Shown here piece by piece: positions 39,962 through 51,807 of a DNA stretch of 64,000 bases. Numbering within the stretch: position 1 is the stretch's first letter; every line of letters starts with the position of its first letter. The stretch is from Quadrisphaera sp. RL12-1S. Its GTDB lineage: Bacteria; Actinomycetota; Actinomycetes; Actinomycetales; Quadrisphaeraceae. The notes under the pieces were generated by a model. The model made no database searches. It was not told the DNA's origin and was given only the letters and a program-made list of their open reading frames with translations. The stretch is taken from positions 496,001-560,000 of the forward strand of contig NZ_JACNME010000002.1 in NCBI RefSeq assembly GCF_014270065.1, given 5' to 3'. The translations under genes and the position numbers were made by a program.

Positions 39962-40029
39962 GAGCTCGGAGGATCGGCCCCTTCGGCGTGACGGCTCCGT
40001 CACAGCGAAGGGGCCGATCCTCCGAGCTC
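39962..40029. repeat. palindromic repeat family B, copy 1
   Basis: 24-bp perfect arms (39962-39985 and 40006-40029) containing CTCGGAGGATCGGCCCCTTC, with a further inner stem GTGACGG/CCGTCAC in the loop. It lies at the convergent ends of the anti-sigma gene (39929) and the PheRS-like gene, whose last codons and stop (40000) fall inside the element. Confidence 0.85.
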
Positions 40030-41265
40030 GCCACCGGCACACGGGCGAGCCAGCTCCGCGTGGGGCCCGCAGTGCAGCGCCCGGTAGACCGCGTCTCTCG
40101 CGAGGTCGGCCTCCCACGACGTCAGCGTGCGCTCCAGCGGACGCAGAACCAGCCGGAGCAGGGCGTTGACCTGGCCCGGCACGGTCCCGAGGCGCTCCTG
40201 GACCCGAGGCGGCAGGTCCTCGTGTGCGGTCACCGCCACCACCTGCACCCGCTCCAGGTCTGACGCCCGCTCGCCGAGCGCCGTCCTGACGCGGTCGCCG
40301 AGCACCTCCTCGTCGAGCAGCGGACCGCCCGCCGGGGGGTCGACGGCGTCGCGGTCCAGCACCACGGACAGGTCGCGGCGCGCAGCCGGCAGGGTCGACA
40401 CCGGCCGCCACGGCTCCAGGTCGAGCATCTGGCTGGCAGCGCGCGGGTGGGCGGAGCGCAGCCAGCGGATGTCGTCGACGCCCTTGCGCAGCATCACCGC
40501 GCGGTCCAGCCCCAGTCCCAGGGCCAGGCCCGACCAGCCGATCGGGTCCAGGCCCGAGCCCCGCAGCACGGCCGGGGCGACGAGGCCGCACTCCGCCAGC
40601 TCGAGCCACTCGCCGCCGACCTCGACGTCCACCTGCAGCCCGTCGGTCGTGTACGGGTGGGTGGTCGGGACCGCCCGCCAGGAGGCTCCCGGCAGGACGG
40701 CCTGGACCACGGCGCCAGCCATCGCGAGCAGCGCTTCCCGGTCGCTGGCGCGGTCGGTGCGCAGGGTCCGGATCCGCCACAGGTCCACCTGGTACGGCGC
40801 TCCGACGTGGGTCCTGTCCACCACGTCGCGCCGGTGGACCAGTCCCGGCGCCACGAGGAGCTCGTCCACGGCGGGCGCCCGGCGTCCGTCGAGCCGAGCG
40901 CGGGCGCGCTCGGCGGCGACAGCGCGGTAGCGGTCCAGCTCGTGGGGCATCGCCGCGCTGGTGTGGCTGCGCAGCATCGTGGTCGGGCTGGCGTAGCGGG
41001 TGTACCGGCGGGCGCGGGTGACGTCGTCGGTCCGGTAGCCGAGCCGGTCGTAGTTGTCGGCGACGGCTACCAGCGGCCCTGGCCGCACGCTGCGCACGGG
41101 GCAGCCCCACAGCCTGGACAGCGTGCTGGTGACGGCGTCGAGCAGCAGCTGCGCAGCGTGCGGTCCCTGGGCGGGGTCGGTGAGGTCCCGCAGGGTCAGG
41201 GCGGCGACCAGCTCAGGCGTGCTGAGCAGGTCGGCGGTGGTGCGGTGGGAGGTGGAGGTGGGCAC
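40000..41265 (-). CDS. stand-alone PheRS-like protein: PheS core plus FDX-ACB domain
   Basis: 421 residues from GTG 41265, which follows CAGGAGACC. Class II synthetase motif 2 is PTTMLRSHTSAAMPHEL (~94-110), then LVHRRDVVDRTHVGAPYQVD and, with motif 3, GWSGLALGLGLDRAVML with DIRWL. Residues ~300-405 form an FDX-ACB anticodon-binding domain (TLPAARRDLSVVLDRD and RPLERTLTSWEAD). This is the architecture of monomeric mitochondrial PheRS, not bacterial PheS/PheT. The pocket motif is changed (APYQVD for FHQxEG), so amino-acid choice may differ. It may be a spare or resistant synthetase, or an amino-acid ligase. Confidence 0.85.
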   Translation of the reverse strand: MPTSTSHRTTADLLSTPELVAALTLRDLTDPAQGPHAAQLLLDAVTSTLSRLWGCPVRSVRPGPLVAVADNYDRLGYRTDDVTRARRYTRYASPTTMLRSHTSAAMPHELDRYRAVAAERARARLDGRRAPAVDELLVAPGLVHRRDVVDRTHVGAPYQVDLWRIRTLRTDRASDREALLAMAGAVVQAVLPGASWRAVPTTHPYTTDGLQVDVEVGGEWLELAECGLVAPAVLRGSGLDPIGWSGLALGLGLDRAVMLRKGVDDIRWLRSAHPRAASQMLDLEPWRPVSTLPAARRDLSVVLDRDAVDPPAGGPLLDEEVLGDRVRTALGERASDLERVQVVAVTAHEDLPPRVQERLGTVPGQVNALLRLVLRPLERTLTSWEADLARDAVYRALHCGPHAELARPCAGGELGGSAPSL

Positions 41266-41487
41266 GGCGGGTCTCCTGGCGCTCGGTCGGTGGGTGGTCA
41301 ACCCCCGGCCGGCGGCTGCGGAGCGCTACGCGACGTGGCGTGCAGCAGTGGCCCCGCAGCCGGTGGTCGGCCGGGGGCGCCCAAATCGACGCGTGCGTCG
41401 GAGCGGCGCTGCCACAGGACCAGGGTAGGCCGGAGCGGCACCCGGGGGCCAGGACCACCGCTCCGGCAGGCCGGGCAGACTGCAGCG

Positions 41488-41976
41488 GTGGTCGTGCTGC
41501 GCCCCCAGCTCCCCGAGGACCTGCCGCTGCTCACGGGCGGCGAGAGCCCCTTCGACGACTTCGGCCCGTCAGCCGCGCGGGCCGCCCCTGCGGGGTGCGA
41601 CCTGGAGAGGCACGGCGCGCTCACCGTGGTGACCGACGACGGCGACGTCGCCGGCGAGGTCAGCTGGCACTGGCAGGAGCGCCGCTGGGGCCCGAACGCC
41701 GCGTCGGGCTGCCCGATGATCGGCGTCTGGTTGCGTCCGGCGCACCGCGGCAGGGGCATCGGCACGCAGGCGCAGCGCCGGCTCGTGGAGCTGCTGTTCG
41801 CCCACACCGCGGCGCACCGCGTCGAGGCGCACACCGACGTGGAGAACCTCGCCGAGCAGCGCAGCCTGGAGAAGGCGGGGCTGCTGCGCGAGGGCGTGGT
41901 CCGCGGTGGGCAGTGGCGCGACGGCGCCTTCCGGGACGGCGTGCTCTACGCCGTGCTGCGCACCGACCTCACGTGA
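41488..41976 (+). CDS. GNAT family N-acetyltransferase (RimJ/RimL-like)
   Basis: 162 residues from GTG 41488 (GTG 41494 also possible). The acetyl-CoA loop is GVWLRPAHRGRGIGTQAQRR, and AHTDVENLAEQRSLEKAGLL then REGVVRGGQWRDG is typical of RimJ/RimL-type enzymes that acetylate protein N termini or antibiotics. Divergent from the PheRS-like gene and convergent, with an 8-nt overlap, with the APH-fold kinase. Confidence 0.9.
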   Translation: MVVLRPQLPEDLPLLTGGESPFDDFGPSAARAAPAGCDLERHGALTVVTDDGDVAGEVSWHWQERRWGPNAASGCPMIGVWLRPAHRGRGIGTQAQRRLVELLFAHTAAHRVEAHTDVENLAEQRSLEKAGLLREGVVRGGQWRDGAFRDGVLYAVLRTDLT

Positions 41977-42865
41977 AGACGTCGAGGAGGCGGCGGCACC
42001 TCGGCGGGTCGAGCGTGAGCCCGCGCCGCAGGCCCCACAGGAGGTAGGACGCCGACCGCACGAGCACCCAGTCGCGGGCCCGCTCGCGCGGCACACCCGC
42101 CACGTCGACGAAGCGGTCGAAGAGCGCCACCACGCCGGCGTCGTCGTCGACCTCGTCCAGGCGGCTCCACAGGACCCGGGCGAGGTCGTGCTCGAGGTCT
42201 CCCCGCAGCAGCAGCGGGTCCACCACCAGCCAGGGAGCGCGGCGCCCGCGCAGCACCTGCTCGGGGTGGAGGTCGCCGTCGACGGCGAGGTCCGGGAAGG
42301 GCGCGGTAGCCCTGGAAAGGGCGGCGCGGAGCACCGCGTCGACCTGGGGGCGCGGAAAGGGGCGCCCCAGCGCCTCCCACTCCCCCGGCAGCGACGCTGC
42401 GAGCTCGGCAGCGGCCGACGCGGTGCTCGGCACGTCCGCCGCGACGGGCACCGCGAGCGTCACGGCCAGCTCGGCGAGCACCTCGACCGCCTCGGGCAGC
42501 GGGACGCCGGCGAGCGTCGCGCTGCCGTCGAGGCGCTCGAGCAGGAGGGCGCGCTGGTCGTCGTCGTCGACGTCGTGGAGGAGCACCGCTCCGCGCCCGG
42601 CCCACAGGCGCAGCGCACGCGCCTGACCGGTGACGTCGTCTCCCGGCGGCGCGAGGCGCAGGGCCAGCGGCTCCCCCGGACCGGACCGCTCGACGACGGG
42701 GACGACGAGCGCGTTCGACCCGTGCCACGGGGGGCCGTCCACGGCGAGCGACCAGCGACGGCACTGGTCGGCGACGAGCGCGGGGAGCTCCTCAAGCCAG
42801 GCGCGGCCCGCGTCGTCGTGCCACCAGCGGGGCATCGCGCGGAACGCCTCCGGCACCTCGACCAC
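41969..42865 (-). CDS. APH(6)/hydroxyurea-type antibiotic phosphotransferase-like kinase
   Basis: 298 residues from GTG 42865. Matches the streptomycin 6-kinase / hydroxyurea phosphotransferase group: AMPRWWHDDAGRAWLEELPA, then LLHDVDDDDQRALLLERLDG. The catalytic loop is LAVDGDLHPEQVLRG, with the metal Asp in WLVVDPLLLRGDLEHDLARV. It may inactivate aminoglycosides or phosphorylate a natural small molecule. The substrate cannot be inferred. It is divergent from the HTH-arr operon, and the three resistance-like genes sit together. Confidence 0.88.
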   Translation of the reverse strand: MVEVPEAFRAMPRWWHDDAGRAWLEELPALVADQCRRWSLAVDGPPWHGSNALVVPVVERSGPGEPLALRLAPPGDDVTGQARALRLWAGRGAVLLHDVDDDDQRALLLERLDGSATLAGVPLPEAVEVLAELAVTLAVPVAADVPSTASAAAELAASLPGEWEALGRPFPRPQVDAVLRAALSRATAPFPDLAVDGDLHPEQVLRGRRAPWLVVDPLLLRGDLEHDLARVLWSRLDEVDDDAGVVALFDRFVDVAGVPRERARDWVLVRSASYLLWGLRRGLTLDPPRCRRLLDVFT

Positions 42866-42921: not shown

Positions 42922-43317
42922 GTGACCACACCTGGTGCCCTGGAGCGCGAGCACACGCTGATGACCGCCGCGGCGCGCTACGACGCGCTGCGCCGCCAGG
43001 AGATCGCTGACTCCGCCGGTGTGGACGCCGCCGTCGGTGACCCCGCCAGCGCGCTGGAGCTGCTCGCGCTGAGCGAGGTGCTGGTCCGCAAGGCCGGGTA
43101 CGGCCGCCAGCTCACCGTGCGCGGTGCGCGGGCGGCCGGCGCGAGCTGGGCGCAGATCGGGCAGGCGCTGGGGGTGAGCAAGCAGTCGGCGTGGGAGGGC
43201 CACCAGCGCTGGATCGACGAGCAGGTCCGCCAGCACGCCGCGGTCGACCACGAGGGCATGGACGACGACGAGGCCGCGGCCGCGCGCGAGCTCGCGGGCC
43301 GGAGCTCGGACCAGTGA
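42922..43317 (+). CDS. small helix-turn-helix protein upstream of arr
   Basis: 131 residues from GTG 42922, with GAGGAGG upstream. A helix-turn-helix is seen in AGASWAQIGQALGVSKQSAW, preceded by a helical region (RYDALRRQEIADSAGVDAAV). The acidic C terminus (EGMDDDEAAAARELAG) may be flexible. The stop overlaps the arr start by 4 nt (GTGA), so it is probably a DNA-binding regulator cotranscribed with arr. A TTGACG 40 nt upstream could be a -35 box. Confidence 0.75.
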   Translation: MTTPGALEREHTLMTAAARYDALRRQEIADSAGVDAAVGDPASALELLALSEVLVRKAGYGRQLTVRGARAAGASWAQIGQALGVSKQSAWEGHQRWIDEQVRQHAAVDHEGMDDDEAAAARELAGRSSDQ

Positions 43318-43766
43318 GCGAGAGCGCGCGGGTGCCGGTGACGCTCGACCACTGCGACCACGTGGCGGGGCCGTTCCTCCACGGGACGCGGGCGGTGCTG
43401 GCGGTCGGTGACGAGCTGGTGCCCGGTCACCGGTCGGCCTTCCGGGACCGCGCCCTGCGGCACGTCTACTTCACCACCAAGGAGGAGACGGCGGCCTGGG
43501 GCGCGGAGCTGTCCACCGCGCTGACCGGCGAGACCGGGCGCGGGCACCTGTACGTCGTGGAGCCGCTCGGCCCGTTCGAGGACGACCCGAACGTCACCGA
43601 CAAGAAGTTCCCCGGCAACCCCACGGAGTCGTACCGGACGCTGCACCCGCTGCGCGTGGTCGGGGAGGTGGCCGACTGGCAGGGCCACTCCCCCGAGGTG
43701 GTGCAGGGCATGCTCGACGGCCTCGCCCGCCTGCGCGAGAACGGCCTGGACGTCATCGAGGACTGA
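43314..43766 (+). CDS. arr: rifamycin ADP-ribosyltransferase
   Basis: 150 residues from GTG 43314. The sequence is close to known Arr enzymes: GPFLHGTRAVLAVGDELVPG, then LRHVYFTTKEETAAWGAEL and VVEPLGPFEDDPNVTDKKFP with GNPTESYRTLHPLRVVGEV. H23, Y52 and the D90-D91 pair fit the catalytic residues. It transfers ADP-ribose from NAD+ to the C23 hydroxyl of rifamycins, inactivating them. Coupled to an upstream HTH gene and followed after 17 nt by an APH-fold kinase. Confidence 0.95.
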   Translation: MSESARVPVTLDHCDHVAGPFLHGTRAVLAVGDELVPGHRSAFRDRALRHVYFTTKEETAAWGAELSTALTGETGRGHLYVVEPLGPFEDDPNVTDKKFPGNPTESYRTLHPLRVVGEVADWQGHSPEVVQGMLDGLARLRENGLDVIED

Positions 43767-43783: not shown

Positions 43784-44710
43784 GTGGCCCGGGACCTGGA
43801 CCTGCCCGCCGAGCTGGTCGACGTGCTGCGCCGCGAGCTGGGTCGCGCACCGGTGGCGGCGACGGCGGCAGCGGGGGTCTACGCGTCGGACGCGGCCGCC
43901 GTCGTCGTCCTCGAGGACGGCGAGGAGGTGTTCGTCAAGGCGTCGCGAGACCCCGAGCGCCGCCACGACTACCTGACCGAGGCGCGCATCGGCGCGCAGC
44001 TGCCCGCCGGGCTGGTGACCCCGCGGCTGCGCGGGTGGACGGTCGACGGCGCGTGGGTGGTGCTGTGGTTCGATGCGCTGCACGCGCACCTGGCGGCGCA
44101 GCCGTGGACCGCGGACGACGTCGCGGCCGTGGTGGCGGCGGTCGAGGCGCGGGTGGCACTGCTGGTGCCGAGCCCGGTGGTGCCGCTGCGGTCGGTGGCG
44201 GAGATGGTCGGGCCGGCGTTCACCGTGTGGGGCGACCTGGCCGGCGGGCGCCCGCGGGCCCTGGCGGTGGACGACCTGGACGCGTGGACCCGCGAGCACC
44301 TCGACGAGCTCGCGGCGCTGGAGGCCTCCTGGCCGGGGGCGTCGGCCGGGGAGGCGTTGTGCCACTTCGACCCGCGCACCGACAACTACCTTCTCGACGA
44401 CGCCACCGGTGCGGTGTGGACCATCGACTGGAGCCGCGGCTGCCTCGCGGCGCCGTGGGTGGACCTGGTGACGTTCCTCGTCACCGCGCGGGGCGACGGG
44501 CACGACGCGGCGGCGCTGTTCGCCGCGAGCCCGCTGTCCTGCGGCGCGGAGGCGCGCGCCGTCGACGCGCACCTCGCGGTGCTCGCCGGGTACTGGACGG
44601 AAGCGGCGTTCCGCGCCCGGCCGGACAGCTTCCCCGAGCTGCTCGACTACCAGCGCCGGTCGCTGGCAGGGTCGCTCGCGTGGCTGCGGGAGCGGTGGAC
44701 GACCCAATGA
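43784..44710 (+). CDS. aminoglycoside phosphotransferase-fold kinase
   Basis: 308 residues from GTG 43784. The N-lobe contains VVVLEDGEEVFVKASRDPER. The catalytic loop is ALCHFDPRTDNYLLDD, followed by GAVWTIDWSRGCLAAPWVDL, the Asp that binds Mg. The C-terminal YQRRSLAGSLAWLRERW is usual for this group. Substrate unknown. It follows arr and overlaps the next gene by ATGA, so it is part of a four-gene run. Confidence 0.9.
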   Translation: MARDLDLPAELVDVLRRELGRAPVAATAAAGVYASDAAAVVVLEDGEEVFVKASRDPERRHDYLTEARIGAQLPAGLVTPRLRGWTVDGAWVVLWFDALHAHLAAQPWTADDVAAVVAAVEARVALLVPSPVVPLRSVAEMVGPAFTVWGDLAGGRPRALAVDDLDAWTREHLDELAALEASWPGASAGEALCHFDPRTDNYLLDDATGAVWTIDWSRGCLAAPWVDLVTFLVTARGDGHDAAALFAASPLSCGAEARAVDAHLAVLAGYWTEAAFRARPDSFPELLDYQRRSLAGSLAWLRERWTTQ

Positions 44711-51745: not shown

Positions 51746-51807
51746 CTCGGAGGATGCGCCCCTTCGGCGTGACCGGACGGCTACGCGCAAGGGGCCGATC
51801 CTCCGAG
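51746..51807. repeat. palindromic repeat family B, copy 2
   Basis: Arms 51746-51764 and 51789-51807, 19 bp with a two-base CG/GC swap, share CTCGGAGGAT, GCCCCTTCGGCGTGAC and GGCCGATCCTCCGAG with the copy at 39962. It lies 48 nt past the dehydratase stop. Confidence 0.8.

Follow-up and report, generated by a model that had tools for sequence, protein, structure and literature searches.

Bacterial phenylalanyl-tRNA synthetase (PheRS) is normally a PheS2-PheT2 complex in which PheT carries the editing site, and mitochondria use a one-chain enzyme of the FARS2 type. In gamma-proteobacteria, the leader of the pheST genes is pheM. Attenuation of this kind, with a Phe-codon leader ahead of the PheRS genes, is described in a 2005 survey (PMC1262725). 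Spare synthetases are represented by the auxiliary indolmycin-resistant TrpRS1 of Streptomyces (Kitabatake, 2002; Vecchione and Sello, 2009; Vecchione and Sello, 2010). A further PheS-like family is entered at NCBI as NF051887, 'PheS-related mystery ligase SrmL', and the entry gives no function. The family name is thus already known; what we add here is its missing phenylalanine, its leader and a proposed role. A literature search, with most subscription papers lying outside it, found no paper on SrmL, on a Phe-free PheRS or on a natural bacterial PheRS-resistance paralogue, and the term 'PheRS' does not occur in a review of duplicated synthetases (PMC9437257).

Results

Architecture and catalytic residues of SrmL

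The window, by which we mean the whole 64,000-nucleotide stretch of the Quadrisphaera sp. RL12-1S genome analysed here, contains one srmL gene:

40000..41265, minus strand: srmL, encoding a 421-aa PheS-like stand-alone ligase with a C-terminal FDX-ACB domain and zero phenylalanine.

The encoded protein scored 471.9 bits against NF051887 (cut-off 300), with profile positions 1-348 of 349 covered, and is therefore a member of the family. A predicted model and a fold match placed a PheS-like core and an FDX-ACB domain within one chain, as the first-pass annotation had observed when it called the protein a mitochondrial-type PheRS. That label holds for the architecture but not for the sequence, which scored 89.1 bits against the mitochondrial PheRS model TIGR00469 (curated cut-off 258.35), and the likeness to FARS2-type enzymes is one of architecture only (24% identity in superposition). 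SrmL further differs from the FARS2 type in being nearly Phe-free and in being an extra copy rather than the sole PheRS. With bacterial PheS it has the catalytic core and motif residues in common, R145, R146, Q159, R255 and other motif residues being invariant (63/63 sequences), but its score against the bacterial PheS model TIGR00468 (75.2 bits) was also below the curated cut-off (237.45). Unlike bacterial PheS, SrmL is encoded without an adjoining PheT partner gene: the single pheT of the genome adjoins the other pheS, and since no partner gene is adjacent, no editing domain is in view for SrmL. The genome search thus found a normal housekeeping pheST besides srmL, which is a second copy, as expected of an auxiliary synthetase and as the first-pass annotation had supposed in calling it a paralogue.

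The suspected alteration of the Phe pocket was also borne out, with PheS FPF appearing as HPY and PheS FHQ as P-H/Y-Q. H203 and Y205 are invariant in SrmL and stand at the positions of two PheS phenylalanines that we take to be Phe-pocket residues, and comparison of the alignments showed E225 at a position without Glu in PheS. A248, presumably the position of E. coli PheS A294, is also invariant. Because the pocket FPF reads HPY, the specificity of SrmL for phenylalanine is not certain. At residue 158 the window SrmL alone has Y (H in 58/63 and Q in 4), and the same protein sits on a long branch in the tree.

Occurrence of SrmL

With the window's own genome counted in each sample, SrmL above the cut-off was present in 1/13 genomes of its family, 6/198 of its order, 26/394 in a class sample and 2-3/396 in a phylum sample. 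A scan of 84,980 species gave 213 relatives; we retained 80, all of them from Actinobacteria. The scan patterns require Tyr at one of the PheS-Phe positions, a mild bias, and we therefore added a second sample from a profile search that uses no such pattern (25 loci, 21 of them from one family). Further copies were found on plasmids of Glutamicibacter and Azotobacter, in an uncultured 635-kb phage record and in four virus contigs of 415-578 kb. Near-identical copies occur across genera and on plasmids; Brevibacterium mcbrellneri has an SrmL identical to that of the Glutamicibacter plasmid. In a tree that took in no mitochondrial sequence, the five phage copies grouped together (99), and these copies and those of Azotobacter and Kribbella fell outside the remaining Actinobacteria, with no resolved order at the base.

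Phenylalanine is nearly absent from SrmL

We counted phenylalanine in 85 full-length proteins, which are the 88 loci minus L043 and L104 (miscut boundaries) and L028 (frameshifted look). No phenylalanine was present in 76 of them, one in 8 and two in 1, amounting to 0.03% of 32,119 residues versus 2.81% of 220,899 residues in 560 script-picked neighbouring ORFs. Only 2/334 neighbours of at least 300 aa were free of phenylalanine. Tyrosine (1.22 times background) and tryptophan (1.06 times) were not depleted in the same 85 proteins. In the second sample, 23/25 SrmL had no phenylalanine and two had one. In the genome studied here, none of the 421 SrmL residues is phenylalanine, compared with 16 in the 379-residue open frame of PheS. 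For a tree of 66 sequences, approximately 389 arrivals at phenylalanine would be expected, against 13 phenylalanine cells present among 24,500. Lysine is the next lowest residue in cellular SrmL copies (0.29 times background; 85 proteins). The L028 copy, outside all counts, appears to shift frame roughly two thirds of the way through the core.

The phage homologues, four of five of which contain no or one phenylalanine, behave likewise (0 of 359 and 0 of 366 residues; 0 in L116; 1 of 376, near the start, in L114), and neighbours of phage srmL genes contain 3.7-5.7%. Azotobacter SrmL has one. The exceptions are phage L115 (6 of 384) and L126, from another actinobacterial order (5 in the open frame, about 3 of them inside the gene).

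Ten alignment columns that hold phenylalanine in 4/4 PheS (the comparison set being four loci) hold W, Y, Y, Y/H, P, H, Y, L, L and I/V in nearly all of 63 SrmL, and across these columns a single phenylalanine is left, in one column of 1/63 SrmL. Since all ten columns are replaced, the altered pocket is part of a protein-wide removal of phenylalanine. The first-pass suggestion that the enzyme handles a different amino acid or is resistant can be made more precise: the changes in the pocket are one part of the removal throughout the protein, and the leader described below points to Phe-tRNA(Phe) as what is sensed.

A leader with one conserved Phe codon precedes srmL

Ahead of srmL, in the window as in its relatives, lies a short ORF, followed by strands that can pair in alternative ways:

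41326..41415, minus strand: leader ORF, MAAPLRRTRRFGRPRPTTGCGATAARHVA, 29 codons and a stop, ahead of srmL.
41383..41385, minus strand: conserved leader Phe codon TTT, two codons before CCC CGG.
41367..41378, minus strand: strand A (1), CCCCCGGCCG, within the leader ORF right after the Phe codon; pairs with B and D.
41352..41363, minus strand: strand B (2), CCGGCTGCGGGG; pairs with A or C.
41312..41327, minus strand: strand C (3), AGCGCTCCGCAGCCGC, anti-Shine-Dalgarno; pairs with B or with the Shine-Dalgarno region E.
41302..41312, minus strand: strand D, CCGGCCGGGGG, complementary to A.
41273..41277, minus strand: srmL Shine-Dalgarno AGGAG (E, 4), partner of C.

A script found the leader pattern F-x-x-P-[R/G/P] before srmL in 84/88 loci, and the leader was present in 25/25 loci of the second sample. 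Of the four misses, L041 and L103 start at too short a distance from srmL, and L043 and L104, which the script missed on its anchors, show a leader on inspection. The Phe codon was TTT in 82 and TTC in 2 of the 84 script leaders, one TTC being a wrong pick (the actual leader of L078, MNSAPRFSCPRPSGRLGSIAVPQRH, has TTT), and TTT was invariant across 63 aligned leaders (columns 16-18), whereas it makes up 6.2% of the Phe codons nearby (382 of 6210; 560 neighbouring ORFs). Residues outside F-x-x-P vary. In 65/84 leaders the Phe codon is preceded by CGA, which accounts for 7% of Arg codons nearby.

Pairing between strands of the same locus was stronger than between permuted partners for A:B (z = -9.5), A:D (-6.9), B:C (-6.8) and C:E (-10.8), with 0 of 2000 permutations reaching the observed value in each case in a test that ignores relatedness; six other strand combinations, used as controls, gave z from -2.2 to +2.4, most of them showing no such preference. 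RNAalifold recovered A:D alone, with a weak covariation term (-0.42), and of 63 sequences, 55 had CG and 8 had UA at the A:D column pair 27:118. When A:B was forced, pairing of C to the Shine-Dalgarno site rose (7.6 vs 5.9 expected pairs; 71/84 loci), and masking A as a ribosome would raised B:C pairing from 0.19 to 4.94 (up in 83/84 loci). Opening of the Shine-Dalgarno site under forced structures was small (0.32 to 0.35; 60/84 loci); in the window the value went from 0.30 to 0.47. Judged from sequence, the locus appears to combine a cognate-codon leader with alternative RNA structures, as an auxiliary synthetase would, but a simple accessibility model gave the stalled state no advantage (0.30 with the ribosome at the Phe codon vs 0.40 with it at the stop codon; the former higher in 21/84 loci). 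The geometry matches that of ermC-type translational attenuators.

Leaders of a different build were seen outside this group. Upstream of the phage copy L109 is the leader MNTNTTFNFFFSHKMV, with a run of Phe, followed by a terminator-like hairpin and T tract, for which shuffles average 0.1 sites. The Azotobacter plasmid copy has the leader MMNNRSHRFSRPWVRSDQDRAARA and then a hairpin with ATTTTCTTTT after it. No leader was seen for srmL of phage L115.

A covariance model built on the actinobacterial leader matched exactly the 6/198 genomes of the order that carry SrmL, once each. In a phylum sample of 296 genomes it matched the window's genome and G317 (E = 0.0023), and among 99 genomes of the order of G317 it gave four matches at E <= 0.05. 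As about five would be expected by chance at this level, the evidence for these matches is their position. Two of them, the leaders MRMRRFPCPGSFHPGMPVDRSPVDLP (L123) and MAALRFPCPGRTAWGR (L124), lie directly upstream of ordinary pheS in two distant Actinobacteria and read RF-x-x-PG, like those of srmL. Of the other two, L126 precedes an SrmL and L125 looks like chance. According to the 2005 survey, phenylalanine operons of Actinobacteria lack a conserved upstream RNA element (PMC1262725).

Tryptophanyl-tRNA synthetases as a positive control

We applied the same methods to TrpRS in seven genomes of one genus. The seven housekeeping copies contained 2-3 W and had no WW leader, and the second copies (n = 6; L135-L140) contained 0-1 W, with a WW leader in 5/6, for example MTTRTCTQLWWAA. 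A leader and low cognate content are therefore detectable by these methods, as the known auxiliary TrpRS design was recovered.

Genomic context

In bacteria srmL stands alone, with no neighbour common across genera, and in several genera it occupies a stable site among ordinary genes. Some mobile copies adjoin resistance genes: Cmx/CmrA scored above its cut-off beside srmL in L033, L037 and L066, and Tet(65) above its cut-off in L037. A neighbour search covering 105 of 137 listed neighbour ORFs, from 28 loci, gave transposase matches of the IS481 (4) and IS3 (3) families, and Tet(65) also matched in L032. The Glutamicibacter plasmid has an annotated Cmx/CmrA gene near srmL, and on a Corynebacterium plasmid erm(X) and tet(65) adjoin a 3' srmL fragment. 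Loci with resistance-gene or transposase neighbours are a minority of srmL loci.

The huge-phage genes of L113, L114 and L116 lie inside tRNA arrays. On both sides of the L114 srmL, tRNA-Phe(GAA) is the nearest tRNA, and in L116 tRNA-Phe is the second nearest tRNA upstream; no tRNA-Phe was found near srmL in the named bacterial loci (0/80). By eye, srmL of L113 follows directly on the end of a HisRS-looking ORF within its array.

Several further features were observed in the window itself. A rifampin ADP-ribosyltransferase (ARR) gene lies at 43245-43766 on the plus strand (181.6 bits vs the NCBI cut-off of 130), and three genes fall below NCBI cut-offs: an acetyltransferase-like gene (41449-41976, plus strand), an APH(6)-like gene (41972-42865, minus strand) and an APH(3')-like gene (43784-44710, plus strand). 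A near-palindromic repeat, GGAGGATCGGCCCCTTC, has five matches in the window (0.33 expected) and forms inverted pairs at two gene ends (39968-40023 and 51749-51804), the first of which overlaps the 3' end of srmL and gives weak matches to microRNA models.

Discussion

We consider it likely that SrmL is an auxiliary one-chain PheRS that is produced when charging of tRNA(Phe) fails, and that can be built without Phe-tRNA(Phe). It would probably load phenylalanine onto tRNA, as a spare enzyme of some soil bacteria and giant phages. We infer that it charges tRNA(Phe) with phenylalanine, that it is induced when Phe-tRNA(Phe) runs low and, with less confidence, that an inhibitor of the housekeeping PheRS is the usual trigger. 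The first-pass interpretation is in this way partly supported; the leader, the missing phenylalanine and the existing name of the family go beyond it.

In the proposed mechanism, a ribosome would translate the leader ahead of srmL. With ample Phe-tRNA(Phe) it would clear the Phe codon, allowing A:B to pair and C to cover the srmL Shine-Dalgarno site, so that the gene is off. With scarce Phe-tRNA(Phe) it would wait at the Phe codon and mask A, whereupon B:C would pair and the site would open. In the phage and Azotobacter plasmid copies the same logic appears to work on a terminator instead. SrmL would be almost free of phenylalanine because it is built while Phe-tRNA(Phe) is scarce, and the lack of the PheT editing site in such an enzyme could be a reason to keep srmL off.

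By analogy, the best explanation is that SrmL is the Phe counterpart of auxiliary TrpRS1. Both would be spare synthetases beside a housekeeping one, with a cognate-codon leader and low cognate content. They differ in amino acid and enzyme class, and resistance is demonstrated for TrpRS1 but proposed for SrmL. The srmL leader has a single Phe codon, and its switch seems at most loci to work through the ribosome-binding site; gamma-proteobacterial pheST attenuation likewise differs from the one conserved Phe codon and covered Shine-Dalgarno site of actinobacterial srmL. Next to the codon runs of classical leaders, one Phe codon makes a weak sensor. This counts against the best explanation, as do the accessibility results, the phenylalanines of L115 and L126, the HPY pocket and the absence of tRNA-Phe near the named bacterial loci.

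The need that the enzyme answers may be of several kinds. Resistance to a PheRS inhibitor through SrmL is plausible, as some copies lie beside resistance genes, and mobility together with these neighbours suggests such an inhibitor as the need. Our fuller version, which we hold tentatively, is that SrmL gives transferable resistance against a block of PheRS or its tRNA by a still-to-be-found natural antibiotic (or phage-host weapon), with the protein purged of phenylalanine for translation during the block and the leader gauging Phe-tRNA(Phe). Less likely than not, though a real possibility, is that the same enzyme and switch answer phenylalanine starvation or tRNA(Phe) damage rather than an antibiotic, with SrmL having a higher affinity for phenylalanine or accepting altered tRNA(Phe). 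The switch would read Phe-tRNA(Phe) whatever lowers its level, several genera keep srmL in a stable place among ordinary genes, and for the huge phages that hold it in tRNA arrays (L114, L116) host takeover is a likelier pressure than an antibiotic; the phages suggest tRNA(Phe) damage as the need. However, the sporadic occurrence of SrmL, its near-identical copies across genera and plasmids, and the Cmx and Tet(65) neighbours look more like a resistance gene.

It seems unlikely that SrmL attaches an amino acid other than phenylalanine to tRNA(Phe) or another tRNA, or acts on a substrate that is not tRNA, with the leader sensing something else that slows ribosomes there. The invariant H203 and Y205 in place of the pocket phenylalanines, the E225 where PheS lacks Glu and the function left open in NF051887 would fit such an enzyme, but the pocket changes belong to the removal of phenylalanine everywhere in SrmL, FDX-ACB is retained, A248 is invariant, and the conserved leader codon is that of Phe, with the same leader ahead of pheS in two genomes. 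Very improbable is an erm-like leader answering a ribosome-targeting drug, with SrmL serving that resistance in a role unrelated to tRNA(Phe) charging: Cmx, Tet(65) and erm(X) genes do adjoin some copies, but this explains neither the missing phenylalanine nor the Phe-run leader of the phage copy, and the leader varies outside F-x-x-P.

Read as an auxiliary PheRS, SrmL would be a very strong case of cognate-residue avoidance, and one that concerns a tRNA ligase instead of a biosynthetic enzyme; the idea that enzymes avoid the amino acid they handle is set out in an earlier study (PMC4209129). Such avoidance may be general in induced spare synthetases. The 'mystery ligase' family gains a testable function, which predicts a natural threat to phenylalanine charging that none of the papers found in our searches describes. 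Such a threat deserves attention, PheRS being a drug target. SrmL would also give engineers a small one-chain bacterial PheRS and, if the resistance reading is true, would mark where PheRS-blocking compounds are made and met.
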